From Subtercola boreus (GTDB lineage Bacteria > Actinomycetota > Actinomycetes > Actinomycetales > Microbacteriaceae), in contig NZ_NBXD01000029.1 of the NCBI RefSeq assembly GCF_003399645.1, positions 1 to 64,000 of the forward strand: a DNA stretch of 64,000 bases, in the 5' to 3' direction. Below the pieces are notes generated by a model, which saw nothing but the letters and a program-made list of their open reading frames with translations, made no database searches and had not been told where the DNA came from. Below are positions 47,622 through 57,820 of the stretch, in pieces. Position numbers and translations under genes: made by a program. How positions within the stretch are numbered: position 1 is the stretch's first letter; each line of letters starts with the position of its first letter.

Positions 47622-49448
47622 CTACCCGACCGCGTTCGCCGCCGCGAGCCTCGTGACGGCGGTGCGCGCACGCGCCGCCGAGGTCGCAGAGACCGCCGCG
47701 CGCGCCAGCGCCTGCGCTTCGGGGAGGGTGTGCAGCGCGAGTTCGGCACGAACATCCGCGATCGCTGCCGGAGTCATCGAGAGCGTCGTGATTCCGAGCC
47801 CGACAAGCACGACCGCGAGCAGCGGATCGGCCGCGGCCTCGCCGCACACCCCCACGGGCTTGTTCGCCTCGCGACCGGCCCTGCCGAGCATCCCGACCAG
47901 CCTGAGAACGGCCGGATGCCACGGATCCTGCAGGTGGGCGACCGACCCGAGCAGGCGGTCGGCTGCGAGGGTGTACTGGGTGAGGTCGTTGGTGCCGATG
48001 CTCACGAAGTCGGCGATCTCGAAGACCTGGTCGGCGAGCACGGCGAGGGAGGGCACCTCGGCCATCACCCCGGCCACCCGGATTCCGAGCTCGCGGGCGA
48101 TGCTTGTGAAGTATTCGGCGTCGTCGGCGTCGGCGATCATGGGCGCCATCACCCAGAGGTCGACCCGCTCTGCGCCGGGGGTGGCGGATGCCCCGCTCGG
48201 CTGGCTCGGCCCGCCCGTCTCGGTCGCTTCACCGGCGTGCCGCCCGCGGTGGGCCGTGTCGCCCGATGCGGCGGCGCCCGCGGCACCCGTGGCACCCCCG
48301 GCGCCCCCGGCGCCCGCGGCGCTCCCGTTCACGCGAGCCTCCGCCTCTGCCAACGCCGTCAGCTGGTCGAGCAGCACCTGCTCGCTCGCCTTCAGGGCTC
48401 GGATGCCCCGCAGCCCGAGAGCCGGGTTCTCCTCGTGTGCATCGTTCAGAAAGGCGAGCGGTTTGTCGGCGCCGGCGTCGAGCACCCGCACGACGACCTT
48501 CTTGCCCACGAAGGCCCGCAGCATCCGTTCGTACTCGACGACCTGCTGCTCGACGGTCGGCGCCGAGGTGGAGTCGAGAAAGAGGAACTCGGTGCGGAAG
48601 AGCCCCACCCCCTCCGCCCCCAGCGCGAGCGCCTCCGCGGCACCGTCGGCCGAGCCGAGGTTCGCGAGCAGGGGTATCGGCGTTCCGTCGGCGAGCGCAC
48701 CGGGGCTGAGGGGCGCTGCCGCGAGCGCCGCGCGCTCGGCGATGCGCGCCCGGGCATCCGCCACGTCATCGTCGGACGGCTCGGTGTCGACCGTTCCGGC
48801 GACGGCGTCGAGAACGACGAACATTCCGTCTGCCAGGTTCTCGGCACCCTGCACACCCACGATCGCGGGAATCGACTTCGACCGGGCGAGGATCGCGGTG
48901 TGCGACGTGGGCCCGCCCTCGCGGGTGATCAACCCGATCACCCTGTCGAGGTCGAGCAGGGCCGTGTCGGCGGGTGCGAGGTCGTGGGCGACGAGGATGA
49001 ACGGGGTTGGCGACTCTGGCACGCCCGGCGCCGGCACGCCGCGGAGGTTCGCGATGACCCGGCGCGACACGTCATCGAGGTCGGTCGCCCGCTCGGCCAT
49101 ATAGCCACCCATCTGCACGAGCAGGTCGCGAAAGCCCGCATATGCCTCGAACACGGCGCGGTCGGCGGTTCGGCCCTCGCCGAGCCGGGCCTGGATGTCG
49201 TCGACGATCGTCGGATCGGCCGCCATCAGAGACTGCGCCTGCAGCACGTTCTGCGCCTCCCCGCCAGCGAGCTCCCCGCGTGCCTCGAGGTCGGCCGCGA
49301 CGGCGGCAAGGGCGGCCTCGACCCGCGCGAAGGCTGATGCCACCGGCTCCACGCTCACCTCGTCGATGGGTTCATCGAGTGGTTCGGGCATCCGGAGCGT
49401 GGGCCCGACGGCAACACCACGACCGACTCCGACACCCTTCAACAGCAT
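47622..49448 (-). CDS. ptsI: Phosphoenolpyruvate-protein phosphotransferase (PTS enzyme I)
   Basis: 608 aa; GGGAGAG precedes the ATG at 49448. The phosphohistidine is His183 in GGPTSHTAI, followed by the PEP-binding barrel (GVGLFRTEFLFLD, FVGKKVVVRVLDAGADKPL, NPALGLRGIR, VSIGTNDLTQYTLAADR, VGVCGEAAADP with the active Cys). It passes phosphate from PEP to HPr and so feeds the fructose PTS encoded at 57.8-59.8 kb; no HPr gene is in the window. A Gly/Ala/Ser/Thr-rich insert of about 55 residues (374-428) interrupts the barrel just before VMAPMIA, where most enzymes I have a short loop. Confidence 0.96.
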   Translation of the reverse strand: MLLKGVGVGRGVAVGPTLRMPEPLDEPIDEVSVEPVASAFARVEAALAAVAADLEARGELAGGEAQNVLQAQSLMAADPTIVDDIQARLGEGRTADRAVFEAYAGFRDLLVQMGGYMAERATDLDDVSRRVIANLRGVPAPGVPESPTPFILVAHDLAPADTALLDLDRVIGLITREGGPTSHTAILARSKSIPAIVGVQGAENLADGMFVVLDAVAGTVDTEPSDDDVADARARIAERAALAAAPLSPGALADGTPIPLLANLGSADGAAEALALGAEGVGLFRTEFLFLDSTSAPTVEQQVVEYERMLRAFVGKKVVVRVLDAGADKPLAFLNDAHEENPALGLRGIRALKASEQVLLDQLTALAEAEARVNGSAAGAGGAGGATGAAGAAASGDTAHRGRHAGEATETGGPSQPSGASATPGAERVDLWVMAPMIADADDAEYFTSIARELGIRVAGVMAEVPSLAVLADQVFEIADFVSIGTNDLTQYTLAADRLLGSVAHLQDPWHPAVLRLVGMLGRAGREANKPVGVCGEAAADPLLAVVLVGLGITTLSMTPAAIADVRAELALHTLPEAQALARAAVSATSAARARTAVTRLAAANAVG

Positions 49449-49630
49449 GGTTCTCTCCCTCGGTCGCCGCACGCGTGGGTTCAAGAATAGTGCCGCGGAT
49501 GATCGGCCACCCGGGCGCCAGGAGCACCCTCGGCGGCTCCGGGCGTGTGACGATGTCTCAGTTTAGGGGACGAAAGTGCAGTAGACTGGCCTCGGGGATG
49601 ATCGACCGCAGCATCCCGGGAGGAGTCCGC

Positions 49631-51346
49631 TTGTCCGCGCCGAACTCCGCCGAGCGGTCCTCCGCTCTGCCCCCTCACTCCCCCGCGCGAGCAGACTCTC
49701 CCGCGCCCCGGCGTTCGTCGCGGCCGCGCTACACGCGTCCCGGCAGGCTCGCCCGGCAGGCCGTGCTGCGCATCTCGACCGCGATCGTCACCGCGTTCTA
49801 TGGCGTCTACCGTCTGCACCCCGTGCTCTGGCGATTCACGGCGCGGCACTATCACCCGTCGTTCGAACACTTCGCCCGGTGGAACGCCTGGGCCATCTGC
49901 CAGCAGGCCTACCTCGACGTTCCCGCCTATCGCCGTTACCTCGACGAGCACGACTTTGTCTTCGACTGGTGGAACCTCTCGTCGTACCAGCCCACGTCGA
50001 AGAAGGCGTACGTCGACCGGTACTCGGAGGAGGATCGCTGCTGGAACGGTGAAATCACGACGATCGGCACCGTGGTCGACGAGTCCAGCGGTTCGAGCGG
50101 CAAACCGTACAACTGGATGCGGTCGAAAGACGAGCTCGACACGGTGCACAAGAACGTCGCGGGCTACATCACCCTGCTGTTCGGCAGCCGCAGGCTCTTC
50201 TGCATCAACGCCTTCTCCATGGGCGCGTGGGCGACCGGCACGAACACCGGCCAGGCGATGTCGAAGGTCGCAATGGTGAAGAACACCGGGCCCGACATCG
50301 ACAAGATCGTCGATACACTCGCGCATTTCGGGCCGGGCTACACCTACCTGATCAGCGCCTACCCGCCGTTCCTGAAGCACCTGCGCGACCGGCTCGACTC
50401 CGACGGCTTCGACTGGGACGCCTACGAGCTCAATGGCTTCGTGGGCGGCGAGGCGCTCACCGAGGGGCTTCGCGACTACATCGAGAAGCGGTTCGTGCGC
50501 GTGTACTCGGGGTACGGCGCATCCGATCTCACCATCGGGATGGCCGGCGAGAGCGACCTCTCGGTGTGGTTGCGGCGGAGCCTGGTCGCGAATCCGGCGC
50601 TGCGGGCGGCTGTGCTGGGGCCGGATGAAGACCGCACGCCGATGATCTTCCAGTACAACCCGCTCGAGACGTACCTCGAGACCACCGCCGACGGCGAGCT
50701 CCTCGTCACGCTCAACTCGACGGCGATCATGAGCCCGAAGGTGCGCTACAACATCGGCGACGAGGCGAAGATCGTCACCTTTCCGCAGATGGAGGCACAC
50801 GTCGCGGGCTTTCCGCGGCTGGCGCTGGCGTTCGAGAGGGCATTCTCGTCGCAACGCATGAAGCTGCCGTTCGTACTTCTGTTCGGGCGAAAAGACTCGA
50901 CGATCTCGTACATGGGCGCCAACATCTACCCACTCGACGTCGAGAACGGGCTCTACCTCGACAATCCGCACGCGGCCGCCATCGAGTCGTTCAAGCTCAG
51001 CCTGCTCGACATCGGCAACCTCGAGCAGCGGCCGGTCATCCACCTGCAGTTGCGCGAAGATGCCTCACTGGCTCCGGATGACCGGCAGGAGCTCCGCGCG
51101 GCATCGGCGTCGGGCGTGCTCAGGCACCTGTCGAGCGTCTCACGCGACATCGCCCAGTCGCTCGACGAAGACCCGACCGCATCGGATGTGCGCATCGAGA
51201 TCCACGACCACGGCACCGGGGTCTTCGCACAGGGCTCAAGCAAGATCAAGAACGTCTACCTCGTGGACGAGGGTGATCGCGCCGGCGCCGGCGCGGGCGG
51301 AGCGGATGCGGGCGCGGGCGCGGGTGGAGCGGATGCGCACCACTGA
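49631..51346 (+). CDS. CapK/phenylacetate-CoA-ligase-like adenylate-forming enzyme
   Basis: About 571 aa. I favour the TTG at 49631, which has GGGAGGAG 5 nt upstream; an ATG at 49598 is in frame but poorly supported. After a Ser/Pro/Arg-rich start comes the CapK/PaaK-type fold: AYLDVPAYRRYLDEH, phosphate-binding VDESSGSSGKPYNW, ISAYPPFLKHL, LNGFVGGEALTEGLRDYIE, VYSGYGASDL, KVRYNIGDEAKIV and LFGRKDSTISYMGANIYP. Such enzymes activate a carboxylate as an acyl-adenylate for transfer to CoA, an amine or a sugar. The acyl substrate is unknown. The tail is a low-complexity GAGAGGADA repeat that overlaps the next gene. It is first in a tightly packed six-gene operon. Confidence 0.82.
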   Translation: MSAPNSAERSSALPPHSPARADSPAPRRSSRPRYTRPGRLARQAVLRISTAIVTAFYGVYRLHPVLWRFTARHYHPSFEHFARWNAWAICQQAYLDVPAYRRYLDEHDFVFDWWNLSSYQPTSKKAYVDRYSEEDRCWNGEITTIGTVVDESSGSSGKPYNWMRSKDELDTVHKNVAGYITLLFGSRRLFCINAFSMGAWATGTNTGQAMSKVAMVKNTGPDIDKIVDTLAHFGPGYTYLISAYPPFLKHLRDRLDSDGFDWDAYELNGFVGGEALTEGLRDYIEKRFVRVYSGYGASDLTIGMAGESDLSVWLRRSLVANPALRAAVLGPDEDRTPMIFQYNPLETYLETTADGELLVTLNSTAIMSPKVRYNIGDEAKIVTFPQMEAHVAGFPRLALAFERAFSSQRMKLPFVLLFGRKDSTISYMGANIYPLDVENGLYLDNPHAAAIESFKLSLLDIGNLEQRPVIHLQLREDASLAPDDRQELRAASASGVLRHLSSVSRDIAQSLDEDPTASDVRIEIHDHGTGVFAQGSSKIKNVYLVDEGDRAGAGAGGADAGAGAGGADAHH

Positions 51347-52178
51347 CTTCAGGGCGGCCCCCGTGAAGGCCCGCGCAGAGGCGATGGTCATCGCAGAGTT
51401 CTCCTTTCGACCATCGAGCCCCGAACTCCGTTCGCCGCACGTCGTCCGGGGCTTCGCCGGCTATGTCTGGCACAGGTCGTTCCGACGGGCCGGCGTGCGG
51501 GGTATTGTCGTGCTCTTCGACACGGGTGATCACGCCCAGGTGTACCGCAGCGCCCTTCGCCGCACTCCGGCTCGAACACGCCTCATGATCGCGGAACCGG
51601 GCGGGTACAGTAACGGGGTCTGGCGCGCGGAGGGGCACGTCATGGCGCACATCCCCACTTTCACGCCCACCTCGGTCGAGGCCGCCCGCGGTGCGACCGG
51701 GCCCCCCGTCACCGAGCCGGCTGGCGCGGAAGACGGCCCCGATCGACGTCCCGCACGCGGGCGGCGGAGGCGCCCTCGGTTCTCACCCACAGGCAGGTCG
51801 GACCGGTCGCCGGAGCGGCCCGTCGAGCGGCCTGTGACAGATGCGGGGGCAATGTTCGTCGGGGCGACGAAGTACCGCGGGCCGACAGCGCTCCTGCAGT
51901 TGTCGCGCACGTGGTACCCGATGGTGGCGCGAATGCAGACGCTGCGGGGCTACGTGTGGCACACGATCTACTGGGAGCCCCCATTCACGCTCGGAACGCT
52001 CGCATTCTTCGCTTCGCGCGACGATCTGCTGTCATTCGCCAGGCTCCCCGCCCACCGCGCTCTCATGCAGTGGATCACTCGCGGCACCCGCAACGGAACG
52101 GGCGGTTACATCCGTCTGCACCTCGCACCGGAGACTGCGGCGGAGGCGCGCGGGCCGCGTCCCGGGGGTGCGCCGTGA
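51333..52178 (+). CDS. Unknown protein, possible dimeric alpha/beta-barrel monooxygenase-like
   Basis: 281 aa, overlapping the ligase gene by 14 nt. Two globular parts flank a basic Pro/Arg-rich linker (about residues 130-165). The second part (TALLQLSRTWYPMVARMQTL, GYVWHTIYWEPPFTLGTLAF, FASRDDLLSFARLPAHRALM) has the spacing seen in small heme-degrading/spheroidene-monooxygenase-like ferredoxin folds, and the first part (RSPHVVRGFAGYVWHRSFRR) looks related to it, suggesting an internal duplication. No catalytic residues can be assigned. It may be an accessory or oxidative enzyme of the operon. Confidence 0.6.
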   Translation: MRTTDFRAAPVKARAEAMVIAEFSFRPSSPELRSPHVVRGFAGYVWHRSFRRAGVRGIVVLFDTGDHAQVYRSALRRTPARTRLMIAEPGGYSNGVWRAEGHVMAHIPTFTPTSVEAARGATGPPVTEPAGAEDGPDRRPARGRRRRPRFSPTGRSDRSPERPVERPVTDAGAMFVGATKYRGPTALLQLSRTWYPMVARMQTLRGYVWHTIYWEPPFTLGTLAFFASRDDLLSFARLPAHRALMQWITRGTRNGTGGYIRLHLAPETAAEARGPRPGGAP

Positions 52179-53362
52179 CCGGCGGCATCACCGTCGAGCG
52201 GGTCGCCTCCGCGCACGCACTCCGCGAGTTCATCGCGATGCCGCTTCGGCTGCAGCCGCCTGACCTCGCCGTTCCGCTGGTCGAGGCCAGCATCCGGTCG
52301 TGGTTCGACGGGCGCAGCCCGCATCCCGAGCCGATCGAGCTGCTGGTCGCGCGTGACGCCGGCGGCCAGGTCACCGGACGCACGACCGCCCATACCGACC
52401 GCCGCCTCGACGCGAAGCTCGGCGAGGAGCTGCAGCTGTTCGGTGCGACCGAGTTTTGCGACCGAGAGACGGCCGCGGCACTCTTCGAGGCGCTCGATCG
52501 TCGGGCACGGGCATCCGGAGCCGCCGCACTCTTCGGGCCCGTCTCGCTGCTGCCCAACCAGGCCGGCGGCGTCATCACCTCGGGGTTCGCCGAACGCGGC
52601 TTCGTCGACTCGGCGTGGAACGACGAACAGACGCCGACCGTCTACGAGTCCGAAGGGTTTGCTCGCTGGGGGGAGGCCGACACCTGGGCCGTGGAGGTGG
52701 GCACTGTCGAGGTCACGGCCCCCACAGCCGAGGAACTCGAAGAGGCCGGGCTGCTGCTGGAGTACGGATCGAAACGCGGCATGAAGCGACTGATCCCCGA
52801 ACTGCTCGGGCTTCTCAACGCGTCGTTCGCCCAGCTGCCCTACTACACCGAGATCAGCCCGGCCGAGATGGAAGCGGCGACCGCCGGCCTGGCGTTCCTC
52901 CTCGATGAGCGGCTGCTGCTGCTTGCCCGCGAGCGGGCGACGGGCCGGGCGCTGGCGTTCGTACTGGTCATCCCCGATATCACGGAATTCGTGCAGAAGG
53001 CCGGCGGGCGGCTCTCACCGCTCCGGCAGCTACAGTTGCTCCTGGCGCGGGGGCGGTATCGCGAGGAGGCAGTGCTGGTGATTCAGGGAACCGATCCGTT
53101 GCGGCAGGGGCAGGGCATCCTGAGCCTGCTGAGCAGGCAGCTGCAGGTGAACCTGCGCGACGGGGGGTATCGGATGCTCCGCAGCACCTATGTCGCCCGC
53201 GACAACCCCGGGTCGACGGCGCAGTTCGCGCGGTTCGGTGGGCGGCCGCTGCACGGGTACACGTTCTACCGCCGGCCGGTCGGGCCGACGACGGGGCCGG
53301 GAGTCGGATCGGCCGGGAGCCCGCAGAGCGGGCCGGCGACGACCGCGGGAGGCACAGCGTGA
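52175..53362 (+). CDS. GNAT-like acyltransferase-fold protein
   Basis: 395 aa, GTG start overlapping the upstream stop (GTGA). The N-terminal half (VERVASAHALREFIAMPLRL ... IELLVARDAGGQVTGRTTAH) and the C-terminal part (VLVIQGTDPLRQGQGILSLLSRQLQVNLRDGG, then STYVARDNPGSTAQFARFGGRPLHGYTFYRR) follow a GNAT-like pattern; the latter includes a G-x-G near the expected acyl-CoA site and the closing beta-bulge region. It may transfer an acyl group activated by the upstream ligase, which is inference. The C-terminal 25 residues are Gly/Pro-rich. Confidence 0.65.
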   Translation: MTGGITVERVASAHALREFIAMPLRLQPPDLAVPLVEASIRSWFDGRSPHPEPIELLVARDAGGQVTGRTTAHTDRRLDAKLGEELQLFGATEFCDRETAAALFEALDRRARASGAAALFGPVSLLPNQAGGVITSGFAERGFVDSAWNDEQTPTVYESEGFARWGEADTWAVEVGTVEVTAPTAEELEEAGLLLEYGSKRGMKRLIPELLGLLNASFAQLPYYTEISPAEMEAATAGLAFLLDERLLLLARERATGRALAFVLVIPDITEFVQKAGGRLSPLRQLQLLLARGRYREEAVLVIQGTDPLRQGQGILSLLSRQLQVNLRDGGYRMLRSTYVARDNPGSTAQFARFGGRPLHGYTFYRRPVGPTTGPGVGSAGSPQSGPATTAGGTA

Positions 53363-54645
53363 ACGACGAGACCACCGAACGGCTGCTCGACGGGCTCATC
53401 CTGCTCGCGAGCCGCTCCCCCTCCCCGCACAACACGCAGCCCTGGTCGCCGCACATCGTTCGCGACGGGGCCGACCCGGTGCCCACCGTCGAGGTGTGCG
53501 TCGTGCCGAGTCGAACGCTGCCCGCGGGCGATCCGAGCTTTCGCGATGTGGTGCTCGCGCTGGGAGGCTGGGTCGAGAGCTTCGCTATCGGCGCGGCCGA
53601 GGCGGGGTACGACGCTGAGGTCGAGGCGCTGCCGCAGCTGTCGCGGCTCGAGGAGCTTCCGCTGACGGGGCCGGCCGACGCCGCGATGCCGGTGCTGCGG
53701 CTGCGGCTGGTACCGCGGCTCGCGGCGAAGGCCGGGGGTGGCCACTCCAGCCAGGGCGCCCGGGCGGGCACGGATGCGACCCGCGGCGACGCGGCGGCGC
53801 ACCCTGTCGACGAGAGTGCCGCCCCGCGCCCCTTCACAGCCGACGATGTGCGTGAGCGGGCGGTGTACCGGGGGCGGCTGATCGGGCATCCGGCGACCTG
53901 GGACGACCTCTCCGATGTCGACCTGCCGCCGTGGCTGACGCTCCGCCGCCTCGACGATCGGGCGATGGCGTACCTCAGCCGCCTCGGCATCGCGTTCACA
54001 GCGTCGCGGCCGAGCATCGCGAAGGAGCTGCTGCACTGGCTGCGACTCGACCCCGCGCATCCGAACTACACGAAAGACGGGATGACCGACACGATGCTCG
54101 GCGTGCCGGCCCCGCTTGCGCGGCTTGCCGCTCCGGCGACGCGCTGGCGCAGCATCCGGAACCCGCTGCTGGGCGTCGCCGGGGTCGTGGGGCGCACCGC
54201 GGAGTCGCTCGAACGCGCGCGCACGCTGCGACCCCTCGCCCTCTCGCTCGCCGAGAGCCAGGATGAATCGCCCACCCACCTCGTTCTCGTCGCCAATGCC
54301 CGGCTCGCGGCGCTCGACGACGGCCCGCGCATCACCGCGGCGATGGACAGTCGCATCGGCGTCGCAGAACCCGACGCTCTCGAGGCCGGGCGCGCTCTGC
54401 AGCGCCTGTGGCTGCATGCGCACACGCGCGGGCTGGTCGTGTCGCCGCACTCCGAGCTCATCGATTCGCCGCTCGCGCACGGCCTGCTGCGCAAACGGCT
54501 CTCGCTGGGGCGCAGCGACGTCGCGCTCTCGGTCTTCAGCGCAGGCGTCGCCGCGGGGGCGGTGCAACGCTCCCCACGGCTGACGGATGCCCGCCCGGCG
54601 CGGGCGCGCACAGCCACCCCGCGCCCCACTGCGGCACCCCGATGA
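53359..54645 (+). CDS. Acg-family nitroreductase-like flavoprotein
   Basis: 428 aa, GTG start overlapping the upstream stop. The N-terminal SRSPSPHNTQPW is the FMN-phosphate-binding motif of Acg-type nitroreductase-fold proteins, and the C-terminal LQRLWLHAHTRGLVVSPHSELIDSP matches the helix and loop that close the flavin site. A disordered Ala/Gly/Thr linker lies near residues 125-155. Relatives include FMN-sequestering Acg of mycobacteria and oxidases/dehydrogenases of peptide-derived heterocycles. Oxidation or reduction of the operon's product is possible. The last 25 residues are low-complexity and overlap the next gene. Confidence 0.75.
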   Translation: MNDETTERLLDGLILLASRSPSPHNTQPWSPHIVRDGADPVPTVEVCVVPSRTLPAGDPSFRDVVLALGGWVESFAIGAAEAGYDAEVEALPQLSRLEELPLTGPADAAMPVLRLRLVPRLAAKAGGGHSSQGARAGTDATRGDAAAHPVDESAAPRPFTADDVRERAVYRGRLIGHPATWDDLSDVDLPPWLTLRRLDDRAMAYLSRLGIAFTASRPSIAKELLHWLRLDPAHPNYTKDGMTDTMLGVPAPLARLAAPATRWRSIRNPLLGVAGVVGRTAESLERARTLRPLALSLAESQDESPTHLVLVANARLAALDDGPRITAAMDSRIGVAEPDALEAGRALQRLWLHAHTRGLVVSPHSELIDSPLAHGLLRKRLSLGRSDVALSVFSAGVAAGAVQRSPRLTDARPARARTATPRPTAAPR

Positions 54646-55663
54646 CCGCGATACCGCGCCGCGTGCGCGCCTGGGGCTGGTTCATGAACCGCTTCGACTC
54701 CATGCACGTCGCCACCATGAGCCCGAGCGACATCGCCCACAACCAGACGATGCAGCACGTGCCGGCACCCGTTCGCCGGCTGCTGTTCGGTGCGCGGCAC
54801 CGCGGAGTGTCGACGGATGACCGTTCCTTCCCCTCTGCGAACGGCGACGTGCCCGTGCGCATCTACCGCCCCCGCGTGACGTCCAGTGCCACCACCCTCC
54901 GTCTGGCCACGAGTCCGAGCGCAGTGAAGACCTCCGCCCGATCGTGCTCTACTTCCACGGCGGCGGTTGGACGCTGTTCGGCGGCCTCGACATGTGCGAA
55001 TGGCTGCCGAGCCGCGTCGCCGCCGAACCCGGCGCCATCGTGGTCGCTGTCGACTACCGGCTCGCCCCCGAGCATCCGTTCCCGGCAGCCGTCGACGACT
55101 GCTACGCCGCACTCGAATGGGCCGCTGCCAACGCCACCGGCCTCGGAGCCGACCCACACCGCCTCGCCGTGATCGGCGACAGCGCCGGAGGCAACCTCTC
55201 GGCCGTCGTCAGCCTGCTCGCCCGCGACCGCGGCGGCCCGCACATCGCAGCCCAGGGCCTGATCTACCCGGTCACCGACACCGTTCTCGATGACCGCTCC
55301 ATGCGCCTGAGTGCCACCAACCCCGTGCTGCACCGGGCCGACATGCGCGCCTTCCTCGACCACTATCTGGGCACCGACCCGGAGGCTCCGGAGCGAACGG
55401 ATGCCCGGGCCGCCCCGACCCTGGCCGAGAACCTCAGCGGGCTGCCTCCGGCACTCGTGCAGGTCGCGGCGCACGACGTGCTGCGAGACCAGGCCGTGCT
55501 CTATGCGGAGCGCCTCATCGCGGCAGGCACCCGCACCGATGTGAGCATCTACGCCGATGCCGCGCACGGCTGGGTCACCTACCCGACCATCATGCGCGTC
55601 TCGAAGCGTGCGACCGCCGAGCTCATCGCCTTCCTCCGCAAAGCACTCGCACTCGGCGCATGA
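54642..55663 (+). pseudogene. HSL-family alpha/beta-hydrolase with a frameshift
   Basis: The ATG at 54642 overlaps the nitroreductase stop (ATGA). The first frame encodes the normal start (FMNRFDSMHVATMSPSDIAH ... GDVPVRIYRPR) to about 54875. The rest of the enzyme is in another frame, joined by LRPIVLYFHGGGWTLFGG at about 54930: oxyanion HGGG, nucleophile Ser in IGDSAGGN, acid in QVAAHDVLRDQ and His in DAAHGW. The shift lies between about 54866 and 54925, where the first frame becomes Ser/Thr-rich and unlike the family. It is either a recent frameshift mutation or a sequencing error; the second part alone (54944-55663) would lack a proper start. Confidence 0.8.
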
Positions 55664-56004
55664 CGCGAGGGGAGAAGCACGACGGCGAGGAACAGGGTTT
55701 CGATGCCGACCGCTGGCTCCTCATCGACGGCCGCCGCTGGCGCCGCACCGAACCGTCTCTTCCCGACGACATTGTGGCGGCGCTGAAGTCGCACCTCGGG
55801 CGCGGGCGCTCCGGCGTGCGCACCGCCAGGAGAGCCGGCGACGAAGCCGGCACAGCCGCCGCCCGCCGCCGCAACGGCCTGGCCAAGCTCGGCCTCGGCG
55901 AGCGCGGCCCGTACTGGTGGGAGGTGCCCGAGAAGGAGCGACTCGCCCAGGCCCGGCAGGCGCTTCGCGATCTCGACGACATGGATATGTCCGAAGACAC
56001 TTGA
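55660..56004 (+). CDS. Small conserved actinobacterial protein of unknown function
   Basis: 114 aa, ATGA overlap with the hydrolase. DRWLLIDGRRWRRTEPSLPDDIV and the end LGLGERGPYWWEVPEKERLAQ follow a pattern seen in many actinobacterial proteins (RWL.IDGRRWR..DP.LPE ... GERG.PWWE), sometimes mislabelled as Tol transport proteins. It is highly charged, with no membrane segment. It closes the six-gene operon; its stop codon overlaps the -35 box of the fructose operon. Confidence 0.7.
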   Translation: MTRGEKHDGEEQGFDADRWLLIDGRRWRRTEPSLPDDIVAALKSHLGRGRSGVRTARRAGDEAGTAAARRRNGLAKLGLGERGPYWWEVPEKERLAQARQALRDLDDMDMSEDT

Positions 56005-56030
56005 CAAGCAGACACAAACGGCGGTAAAAC
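56001..56030 (+). promoter_or_regulatory. Promoter of the fructose PTS operon
   Basis: -35 TTGACA (56001-56006) and a -10-like TAAAAC (56025-56030) at 18-bp spacing. The -10 region overlaps the left arm of the inverted repeat at 56027-56060. Confidence 0.6.
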
Positions 56031-56060
56031 AAACAAAGCAAATACTGTATTTGTTTGTTT
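56027..56060. promoter_or_regulatory. Candidate operator for the DeoR-type fructose repressor
   Basis: AAACAAACAAA (56027-56037) and its reverse complement (56050-56060), 12-nt spacer, in the unusual AT-rich leader of the operon. Confidence 0.65.
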
Positions 56061-56090
56061 CACCTCGAACGCCCGACAACGGAGTCTGCT

Positions 56091-56852
56091 GTGTACGCCA
56101 CCGAACGCCACCAAGCCATCCTCGACCAGGCCCGTCGAGACGGCCGTGTCGACGTTCGTGAACTCAGCGAGAACCTCGCCGTCACACCGGAGACCATCCG
56201 CCGCGACCTCACCACCCTCGAACGCCGGGGACTCGTGCAACGGGCCCACGGCGGCGCCATCCCCGTCGACCGGCTGGGCATCGAGCCCGGTGTCTCCGAC
56301 CGCGAGGGCCGTCTGTCGACCGAGAAGAGCGCCATCGCGCGCGCCGCCCTCAGCGAGGTGCCCGACGGCGGTTCCATCATCATCGACGCCGGCACCACCA
56401 CAGTCCGTCTCGCTGAACTGCTCCCCGTCGACCGTGAGCTCACCGTCGTGACGCACTCGCTGCCGGTGGCCATGCTGCTCTCGACGAAGCCGAACATCGA
56501 CCTGCACTTTCTCGGCGGCCACATCCGCGGCCGAACCCTCGCCGCCGTCGGTCCCTGGATCCAGAACGCCATCGCCTCCGTCTCGGTGGATGTCGCGTTC
56601 ATCGGCATCAACGGGATCACCGTCGAGCGCGGCCTCACCACCCCGGACCTCGACGAGGCTGTGGTGAAGTCGACTCTCGTCGCTGCCGCCCGCCGCGTCG
56701 TCGTGCTGGCCGACCACAGCAAGTTCGGCCGCCAGGACTTCGGCCTCGTCGCCCCGCTGAGCGCGATCGACACCGTCATCACCGACGCCGGCCTCGACGG
56801 CGAGTTCTACGACGAGATCGTGGTCTCGGGAACCGACGTGGTGCGCGCATGA
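56091..56852 (+). CDS. DeoR-family repressor of the fructose operon (FruR-like)
   Basis: 253 aa from the GTG at 56091, which has GGAG 8 nt upstream. N-terminal HTH: ATERHQAILDQARRDGRVDVRELSENLAVTPETIRRDLTTLE, with HGGAIPVD; then the sugar-phosphate-sensing domain with DAGTTTVRLAELL, VAFIGINGITVERGLTTPD and ADHSKFGR, all DeoR hallmarks. It is first in the fructose operon, upstream of fruK, so the likely effector is fructose 1-phosphate. Its stop overlaps the fruK start (ATGA). Confidence 0.93.
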   Translation: MYATERHQAILDQARRDGRVDVRELSENLAVTPETIRRDLTTLERRGLVQRAHGGAIPVDRLGIEPGVSDREGRLSTEKSAIARAALSEVPDGGSIIIDAGTTTVRLAELLPVDRELTVVTHSLPVAMLLSTKPNIDLHFLGGHIRGRTLAAVGPWIQNAIASVSVDVAFIGINGITVERGLTTPDLDEAVVKSTLVAAARRVVVLADHSKFGRQDFGLVAPLSAIDTVITDAGLDGEFYDEIVVSGTDVVRA

Positions 56853-57820
56853 TCGTCACCGTCACCGCCAATCCGAGCATCGATGTGACCCTCACGGTCG
56901 ACACTCTCGTCGTGGGCGAGGTGAATCGCGCGACCTCGGTGCGCCGCGACCCCGCCGGTAAGGGCGTGAACGTCTCCCGCGCACTCGCCCAGAACGGCAT
57001 CGCCACCCGCGCCGTGCTACCCGCCGACGCGGTGAACGGCTACGAACTCGAACGGATGCTCGCCGCCCGGTCGATTCCGAGCGTGAGCACCATCATCTCC
57101 CAGGCCATCCGCACCAACGTCACGGTTGTCGACAGCACCGGAACCACGAAGCTGAACGAGCCCGGCCCCGAGGTCAGCACCGCAGAGCTCGCCCGCCTGA
57201 TGACGCTCATCACCGAGCAACTGACCCTCGGCCCCGCCTGGCTGGTCGGTTCGGGCAGCCTGCCCCCGGGCATCCCGAACCGCTTCTACTGCGACCTCGC
57301 AGAACTCGCTGCGAGCTTCGGCGTTCCGTTCGCCGTCGACACCTCGGGCGCGGCCCTGGCCGAGACCGCTCGGAGCGGCACGGCCAGCTTGCTGAAGCCG
57401 AACCTCGAAGAGCTCGAGGAGCTCGTGGGCCGGGAGCTCGCCACCATCGGCGACGTCGTCGACGCGGCCCGCCCCTTTCTCACGATGCCCGGATCGGCCA
57501 TGCTCGTCAGCCTCGACGCCGACGGCGCCCTGCTCGTGAGCGACACAGATCTCTGGTGGGCGGGCTCCCGGCCCGTGGCACCGGTCAGCACGGTCGGCGC
57601 CGGTGACAGTGCCCTGGCCGGCTATCTCAGCGTGACCGACGGCGCGTTCGCTGCACGCCTCGGCGCCGCCGTCGCCTGGGGAACTGCCGCCGTGCAGCTG
57701 CCCGGGAGCCAGGCGCCCTCACCCGCCGACATCCGCCCCGAAGATGTTCGGCTCATCGAAAACCCACCCCCCACCACACCGCTAGGAGAACTCACACTAT
57801 GGCTTCAACCACGCCCCTGA
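56849..57820 (+). CDS. fruK: 1-Phosphofructokinase
   Basis: 323 aa, PfkB/ribokinase fold. It starts MIVTVTANPSIDVTLTVDTL, has the substrate motif GKGVNVSRAL, LVGSGSLPPGIP and the catalytic PVSTVGAGDSALAGYL with the general-base Asp. It phosphorylates fructose 1-phosphate, the product of the fructose PTS, to fructose 1,6-bisphosphate. Its last 22 nt overlap the EIIA gene. Confidence 0.96.
   Translation: MIVTVTANPSIDVTLTVDTLVVGEVNRATSVRRDPAGKGVNVSRALAQNGIATRAVLPADAVNGYELERMLAARSIPSVSTIISQAIRTNVTVVDSTGTTKLNEPGPEVSTAELARLMTLITEQLTLGPAWLVGSGSLPPGIPNRFYCDLAELAASFGVPFAVDTSGAALAETARSGTASLLKPNLEELEELVGRELATIGDVVDAARPFLTMPGSAMLVSLDADGALLVSDTDLWWAGSRPVAPVSTVGAGDSALAGYLSVTDGAFAARLGAAVAWGTAAVQLPGSQAPSPADIRPEDVRLIENPPPTTPLGELTLWLQPRP

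Follow-up and report, generated by a model that had tools for sequence, protein, structure and literature searches.

The closest described counterparts of the operon analyzed here are the small biosynthetic clusters tyzACB, oxzAB and trzAS. As outlined in PMC10404671 and PMC12856293, the N-acyl amino acid formed by an N-acyltransferase is desaturated in an O2-dependent step by a nitroreductase-superfamily flavin oxidase (TyzC, OxzB or TrzS), and the oxazolone ring is then closed by an ATP-dependent ThiF enzyme, oxidase and ThiF being fused in OxzB and TrzS. The tyzACB cluster comes from M. tuberculosis and oxzAB from Pseudoalteromonas rubra, and TyzA is reported to resemble acyl-homoserine lactone (AHL) synthases (PMC10404671). 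Clusters for N-acyl dehydrotyrosines are likewise outlined as an acyl synthase with ThiF and a nitroreductase (PMC12479983). We analyzed a 64,000-nucleotide stretch of the Subtercola boreus genome (contig NZ_NBXD01000029.1, from an assembly of 86 contigs), referred to here as the window, in which four overlapping genes on the + strand, g1 to g4 (positions 49631 to 54645), form a conserved operon and probably make an oxidized, fatty-acid-linked small molecule.

These genes parallel the tyz, oxz and trz clusters in combining a candidate N-acyltransferase (g3), a nitroreductase-superfamily flavin oxidase (g4) and an ATP-using adenylating enzyme (g1). The adenylating enzyme, however, is of the CapK/PaaK type in place of ThiF, g3 is a tandem GNAT of the YghO/bacterial ceramide synthase type, and g4 lies off the FDO-A rows that we sampled; in addition, the operon contains an ABM protein, g2, and its gene fusions join different parts. 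By sequence, g1 to g4 lack two defining features of the tyz family, ThiF and an FDO-A oxidase. The word CapK does not occur in the main text of PMC10404671, PMC12479983 or PMC12856293. A first-pass annotation of the window had stated that no named pathway with this set was known, and this agrees with the titles and abstract openings of the open-access papers that our searches listed, where we found none for g1 to g4; the logic of the set nevertheless resembles that of tyz, oxz and trz.

Scanning a genome collection with g1 yielded 35 loci, 29 of which (L019-L047) are actinobacterial and come from 12 genera: Subtercola, Agreia, Sanguibacter, Cellulomonas, Nesterenkonia, Brevibacterium, Auritidibacter, Corynebacterium, Ornithinimicrobium, Serinicoccus, Kytococcus and Piscicoccus. 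Every one of these 29 loci carries g1, g2, g3 and g4 in this order on a single strand; in L021 and L046, g4 lies at the edge of the contig. The junctions between the genes are mostly -4 or -1 nucleotides wherever boundaries could be placed. The first-pass annotation had proposed such a neighborhood search for the g1-g2 pair, which was kept within the four-gene order in all 29 loci; the scattering among relatives that it had named as evidence against a single system was not seen for g1 to g4 in these loci. We found the same order in Nonomuraea gerenzanensis (L109), in the genomes G151, G251 and G628 and in five more loci (L152-L156) whose genomes share the genus or family of the window. Adjacent genes are fused without an intervening stop in 8/29 loci, g3 with g4 in L032, L036 and L038, and g2 with g3 and g4 in L039 and L041-L044, all five from Serinicoccus. 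Because the fusions occur in different combinations, they are good evidence that the products work together. In the Auritidibacter locus (L035:12167-14394) g3 is frame-broken and its end reads in the g4 frame, and this locus was excluded from the fusion count.

The distribution of these genes is scattered rather than universal: some g1 match was present in 27 of 396 genomes of the phylum and a g3 match in 12 of 394 genomes of the class. Within the genus, 10 of 11 genomes carry g1, the one without it being G003. A distance correlation across 15 loci (Spearman 0.54 for g3-g1, 0.45 for g3-g4 and 0.73 for g1-g4, with equally high values in 0, 3 and 0 of 500 permutations, respectively) fits joint inheritance, but species relatedness alone can produce the same result. 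We conclude that g1 to g4 are a real, conserved and partly fused operon; homology together with conserved linkage suggests that they encode one biosynthetic module.

The most consistent association was that of g1 with a g4-type oxidase. Among g1 relatives that are at least about 33% identical to the window g1 and had their surroundings examined, such an oxidase lay on the g1 strand in 45/45 loci (window included), where the gap was at most 2.4 kb, and in all six of L151-L156, giving 51/51 loci from four phyla. Eleven ThiF queries, taken from the ThiF-FDO fusions of NF005901 loci, found no ThiF at E 1e-3 in the stretches examined at any of the 51. Both g2 and g3 are present in 39 of these loci and both are missing from the other 12, in which the pair is directly adjoining: two of Sphingomonas, one each of Mesorhizobium, Gemmatirosa and a metagenome-assembled genome labeled Patescibacteria, six (L142-L147) from other members of the window's phylum and one (L151) from its own family. 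Since these 12 pairs stand without g3, g1 appears to have the oxidase, and not g3, as its partner. The count excludes L123-L136, whose surroundings were not fetched; of the more distant relatives, L149 (32% identity) ends within g1 at a contig end, and L052 and L053 (28 and 26%) showed no oxidase with the window g4 as the query.

Several side observations concern these pairs. In Sphingomonas, a long open reading frame (ORF) stands directly before the oxidase-CapK pair (L048:5635-9066 and L051:5437-8877), and a family search, made for L048 only, identified MFS transporter, PlsC-type acyltransferase and AMP-binding domains in it. An Acyl_transf_3 gene precedes the pair in L146. Two apparent FDO-CapK fusions, L110:6822-9353 and L147:4770-7346, were rejected, as these long GC-rich ORFs encode the g1 part only and the oxidase lies in another frame; they are a trap for ORF-based reading.

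The first gene, g1 (49631..51346, + strand, 571 amino acids), has a TTG start preceded by GGAGG and encodes a CapK/PaaK-like adenylate-forming enzyme. It scores 33.8 bits against the NCBIfam PaaK model TIGR02155, far below the curated cut-off of 646. A profile of 18 g1 rows matched PaaK 2y4o in the PDB at 6.2e-12, and the closest solved relatives by profile are phenylacetate-CoA (coenzyme A) ligases. DESSGSxGxP, YGASD, YxIxD, GRxD and a C-terminal Lys are invariant across the 18 rows, and we take these to be the ATP-binding and lysine motifs of adenylate-forming enzymes. While g1 presumably has such motifs in common with PaaK/CapK ligases, it is set apart from them by its low PaaK score and by the oxidase gene adjoining it.

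For g3 (52175..53362, + strand, 395 amino acids), family searches gave little: with an E limit of 1, PF00583 was matched by 8 of 15 g3 rows (best 0.0011), the one from the window not among them, and the g3 profile found weak GNAT matches only among PDB sequences. The AlphaFold2 (AF2) model, with a predicted local distance difference test score (pLDDT) of 88.3 and a predicted template modeling score (pTM) of 0.85, is a tandem GNAT. Its fold matches were led by tandem GNATs with Z of 20.6-24.5, the closest being 7q3a (Z 24.5), with mycothiol synthase 2c27 at Z 22.9, followed by N-myristoyltransferases at Z near 17; FeeM/BjaI-type AHL synthases were absent among the fold matches listed. A Q/R-G-x-G loop, presumably the CoA-binding loop, is kept in most g3 rows. 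We examined the likeness to YghO and bacterial ceramide synthases in an hhalign test, in which the 15-row g3 profile aligned with E. coli YghO at 1.2e-21 over 359 columns (20% identity) and with a Sphingomonas jatrophae protein at 4.3e-23 over 364 columns (23% identity). Judged by these two comparisons, g3 is a full-length homologue within the YghO/bacterial ceramide synthase superfamily, although at only 20-23% identity.

The Sphingomonas homologue is encoded near a DAGK-type kinase, LptF/G and a class I/II aminotransferase gene, which we take for spt. This resembles the sphingolipid region of Caulobacter as outlined in PMC11324152; the Caulobacter CerS is described as an N-acyltransferase. 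Because of this sphingolipid-cluster setting, the Sphingomonas protein is a presumed ceramide synthase. The aligned E. coli gene yghO (L054:5044-6216) carries the annotation of a putative transcriptional regulator but aligns with g3 over its full length; the K-12 copy terminates at an IS5 insertion. Another homologue, L069:7807-8895, has 47% identity to a g3 row, with no g1, g2 or g4 in the 17 kb examined, and the distant homologues L072, L073 and L074 lie near very long ORFs that begin, by eye, like modular polyketide synthases.

The oxidase gene g4 (53359..54645, + strand, 428 amino acids) encodes an Acg-like, FDO-like flavin enzyme of the nitroreductase superfamily. It scores 99.8 bits against the Acg family NF047509, half of the curated cut-off of 199; an 18-row profile matched Acg 2ymv at 4e-26 over most of its length, and classical nitroreductases matched in short stretches only. 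We compared 15 actinobacterial g4 rows (the window and 14 of the 29 loci, the L035 row including some g3 tail) and 3 proteobacterial CapK-linked rows with two reference sets, the FDO domains of 11 ThiF-FDO fusions (L090-L092 omitted) and 15 Rv3131/Acg-type rows (the truncated L100 omitted). By hhalign, g4 aligned with the proteobacterial rows at 3.8e-27, and the two reference sets aligned with each other at 6e-37. In a tree of 46 rows, the actinobacterial g4 rows form one group (92/95) and are joined with the three proteobacterial CapK-linked oxidases (89/90); we claim no root for this tree because the outgroup rows are long branches. Thus g4 shares with the FMN-binding (flavin mononucleotide-binding) Acg/Rv3131 oxidoreductases an alignment over most of its length but differs in its low family score and in branching separately with the three proteobacterial oxidases. 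Assigning g4 to the FDO-A oxidases was not borne out, given the hhalign values and the separate tree branch relative to the 11 FDO-A rows.

The remaining gene of the unit, g2 (51333..52178, + strand, 281 amino acids), encodes a tandem ABM/af470-like protein. At E up to 1, PF13826 (af470-like) matched 15 of 18 g2 domain rows (best 5.3e-6) and the ABM family matched 8 of 18 (best 0.011); the window g2 alone reached E 0.24 and 12.1 bits against PF13826, below the gathering cut-off of 25. Searching PDB sequences with the g2 profile gave nothing useful. The AF2 model (pLDDT 83.8, pTM 0.80) consists of two ferredoxin-like halves, the second of which matched ABM proteins in the PDB across about 95 residues with Z close to 10. 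This is a common fold, and model and matches agree that g2 has the ABM (dimeric alpha/beta-barrel) fold. Structure predictions of g2 and g3 had both been suggested by the first-pass annotation, and they accordingly supplied an ABM fold for the one and a tandem GNAT for the other. In the window, the conserved residues lie in the second half of g2, and the divergent first half is without most of them; by genus, g2 is a single gene with either one or two domains, or else a tandem pair of genes. It has the PF13826-like domain and fold in common with Af470 (Fma-ABM), for which oxidative cleavage in fumagillin synthesis is described in PMC7020470, and with other ABM proteins, but differs in its tandem form with one divergent half, in its setting in a bacterial operon and in the window copy falling below the Pfam cut-off.

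In the pathway that we propose, g3 would attach a fatty-acyl group to an amine, with an amino acid as the likeliest acceptor, and g4, as an FMN enzyme, would carry out an O2-dependent dehydrogenation of the g3 product. The ATP-driven activation of the carboxylate, for an oxazolone-like cyclization or for transfer onward, would fall to g1, and g2 might contribute a further oxidation or cyclization in actinobacteria. Such a scheme would be like that of tyzACB, oxzAB and trzAS, with CapK replacing ThiF and with the described roles mapped onto g3, g4 and g1; the substrates, the order of steps, the product and this mapping are what we infer from homology and gene order. By analogy, we give the broad form of this proposal, that g1 to g4 work like tyz, oxz and trz, just under an even chance; an oxazolone ring in particular seems unlikely as a feature of the product.

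Several results weigh against this proposal. By hhalign, g4 aligned at only 1.2e-14 with the 11 ThiF-FDO fusions, compared with 1e-29 for the 15 Rv3131/Acg-type rows, and in the tree, to which TyzC and OxzB did not contribute, the g4 branch is separate from both reference sets (99/100 and 99/97). The acyltransferases may also differ in kind, as g3, a candidate N-acyltransferase by homology, models as a tandem GNAT and TyzA is reported to be AHL-synthase-like. Furthermore, g3 homologues occur with no g1, g2 or g4 in the surrounding stretches (L069-L074), and conversely, the 12 g1-oxidase pairs lacking g2 and g3 include one, L151, from the window's own family. Finally, no oxidase was present with the weaker g1 relatives L148 and L150 (31%) or in the 12 kb examined at the truncated relative L157 (31%, in two pieces).

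The same enzymes could act in a different order. If g1 came first, converting an acid to its acyl-AMP or acyl-CoA, g3 could transfer the acyl group to an amine and g2 and g4 could oxidize the resulting amide, with no cyclization of a carboxylate. The phenylacetate-CoA ligases as closest solved relatives of g1 and the Q/R-G-x-G loop of g3, presumably for CoA binding, speak for this order, but the 12 of 51 g1-oxidase pairs without g3 do not, and we consider it rather doubtful. An envelope lipid of sphingolipid type, with g3 acting as ceramide synthase and the operon modifying ceramides, would account for the full-length alignment of g3 with the homologue from the Sphingomonas sphingolipid cluster. 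Identity to that protein is, however, about 23%, and clustering with spt was not observed around the operon loci: an Spt-like fragment from L077, used as the query at E 1e-3, found no match in L019-L053, a search that covered neither the window nor cerR. This makes a sphingolipid-like product quite improbable. Hardly more credible, and if anything slightly less so, is the catabolism or detoxification of an aromatic acid by a PaaK-like CoA ligase and a nitroreductase. While g1 is similar to PaaK, its score falls far short of the cut-off for that family; among solved structures g4 matches Acg best and does so along most of its length, as opposed to the short stretches shared with classical nitroreductases, and through the fusions g4 is linked with g2 and g3, although no search aimed at ring-cleavage genes was made. 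A chance neighborhood would fit g6, a small gene further downstream, but has nothing in its favor for g1 to g4, whose colinearity over twelve genera, together with the fusions, leaves it a negligible probability.

Returning to the proposed tyz-like pathway, CapK enzymes with their own oxidase branch might constitute a widespread, undescribed route to oxidized (dehydro or cyclized) lipo-amino acids in at least four phyla, to which actinobacteria would have added the ABM protein and the ceramide-synthase-like acyltransferase, giving a partly fused enzyme line and a new class of lipids. We offer this wider picture tentatively, as a possibility that is more doubtful than not. If the proposed tyz-like pathway is right, the making of oxidized lipo-amino acids extends well past the bacteria of the papers cited above, through a route that is parallel in its chemistry but assembled from different parts. 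The analysis also provides a concrete function to test for one group of CapK-like proteins and one branch of Acg-like oxidases, and it places the YghO/ceramide synthase superfamily in another kind of setting besides the one already described.

In the window, g1 to g4 are the first of six successive + strand coding stretches, and ORF ends and translations gave overlaps of 14, 4, 4, 4 and 4 nucleotides at the junctions, just as the first-pass annotation had described (4 to 14 nucleotides). The GC content at third codon positions is 0.81-0.89 for each coding piece. That annotation had read all six as one operon whose products act on one molecule, and only part of this stands. For g1 to g4 the colinearity (29/29), fusions (8/29) and oxidase pairing (51/51) that we observed support it, whereas the last two genes lie outside the conserved unit. 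Its family assignments held for the CapK-like g1, the GNAT g3 and the Acg-like g4. The HSL-type esterase, g5 (54642..55663, + strand), is not a single ORF. The N part of g5 (54642 to ~54890), upstream of the catalytic part, and its C part (~54944-55663) are in different frames, the frame change falling between ~54890 and ~54944. Both parts are in one frame with no intervening stop in 10/10 g1-scan loci carrying both; with an assembly of 86 contigs, the break in the window could equally be genuine or a sequencing error.

A six-gene unit was rejected, as g5 is limited to near relatives and g6 follows in none of the 29 actinobacterial loci. Among the 12 Subtercola/Agreia loci, 10 have g5 following g4 (L021 stops at a contig end and L029 is without g5), as against none of the 17 loci of other genera, which makes 10/29 overall; g5 also follows g4 in 5/5 further near relatives (L152-L156) and is probably accessory. 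The sixth gene, g6 (55660..56004, + strand), encodes a small conserved protein of 114 amino acids and had no match in loci L019-L053. In G008, G011 and G042, a g6 homologue is on a different contig from the operon; this is weak evidence in G011, where the operon (L021) reaches a contig end, and the DNA 3' of the operon in G008 (L020) and G042 (L033) contains no g6.

No sigma-70-like promoters or terminators were detected in 49300-56200, which is uninformative. The six coding stretches are flanked by a divergent ptsI (47622-49484, - strand) and by a DeoR-type regulator with a 1-phosphofructokinase-like gene (56055-57820, + strand). Clustering of ORFs around the loci showed that flanking genes vary between genera; the crude ORF caller missed some core genes, and the clustering was used only for such flank differences. 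Within the stretches examined, ptsI, deoR and pfkB were not found in g1-scan loci of other genera, while all three flank the operon in L019, and ptsI alone is present in five other Subtercola loci.

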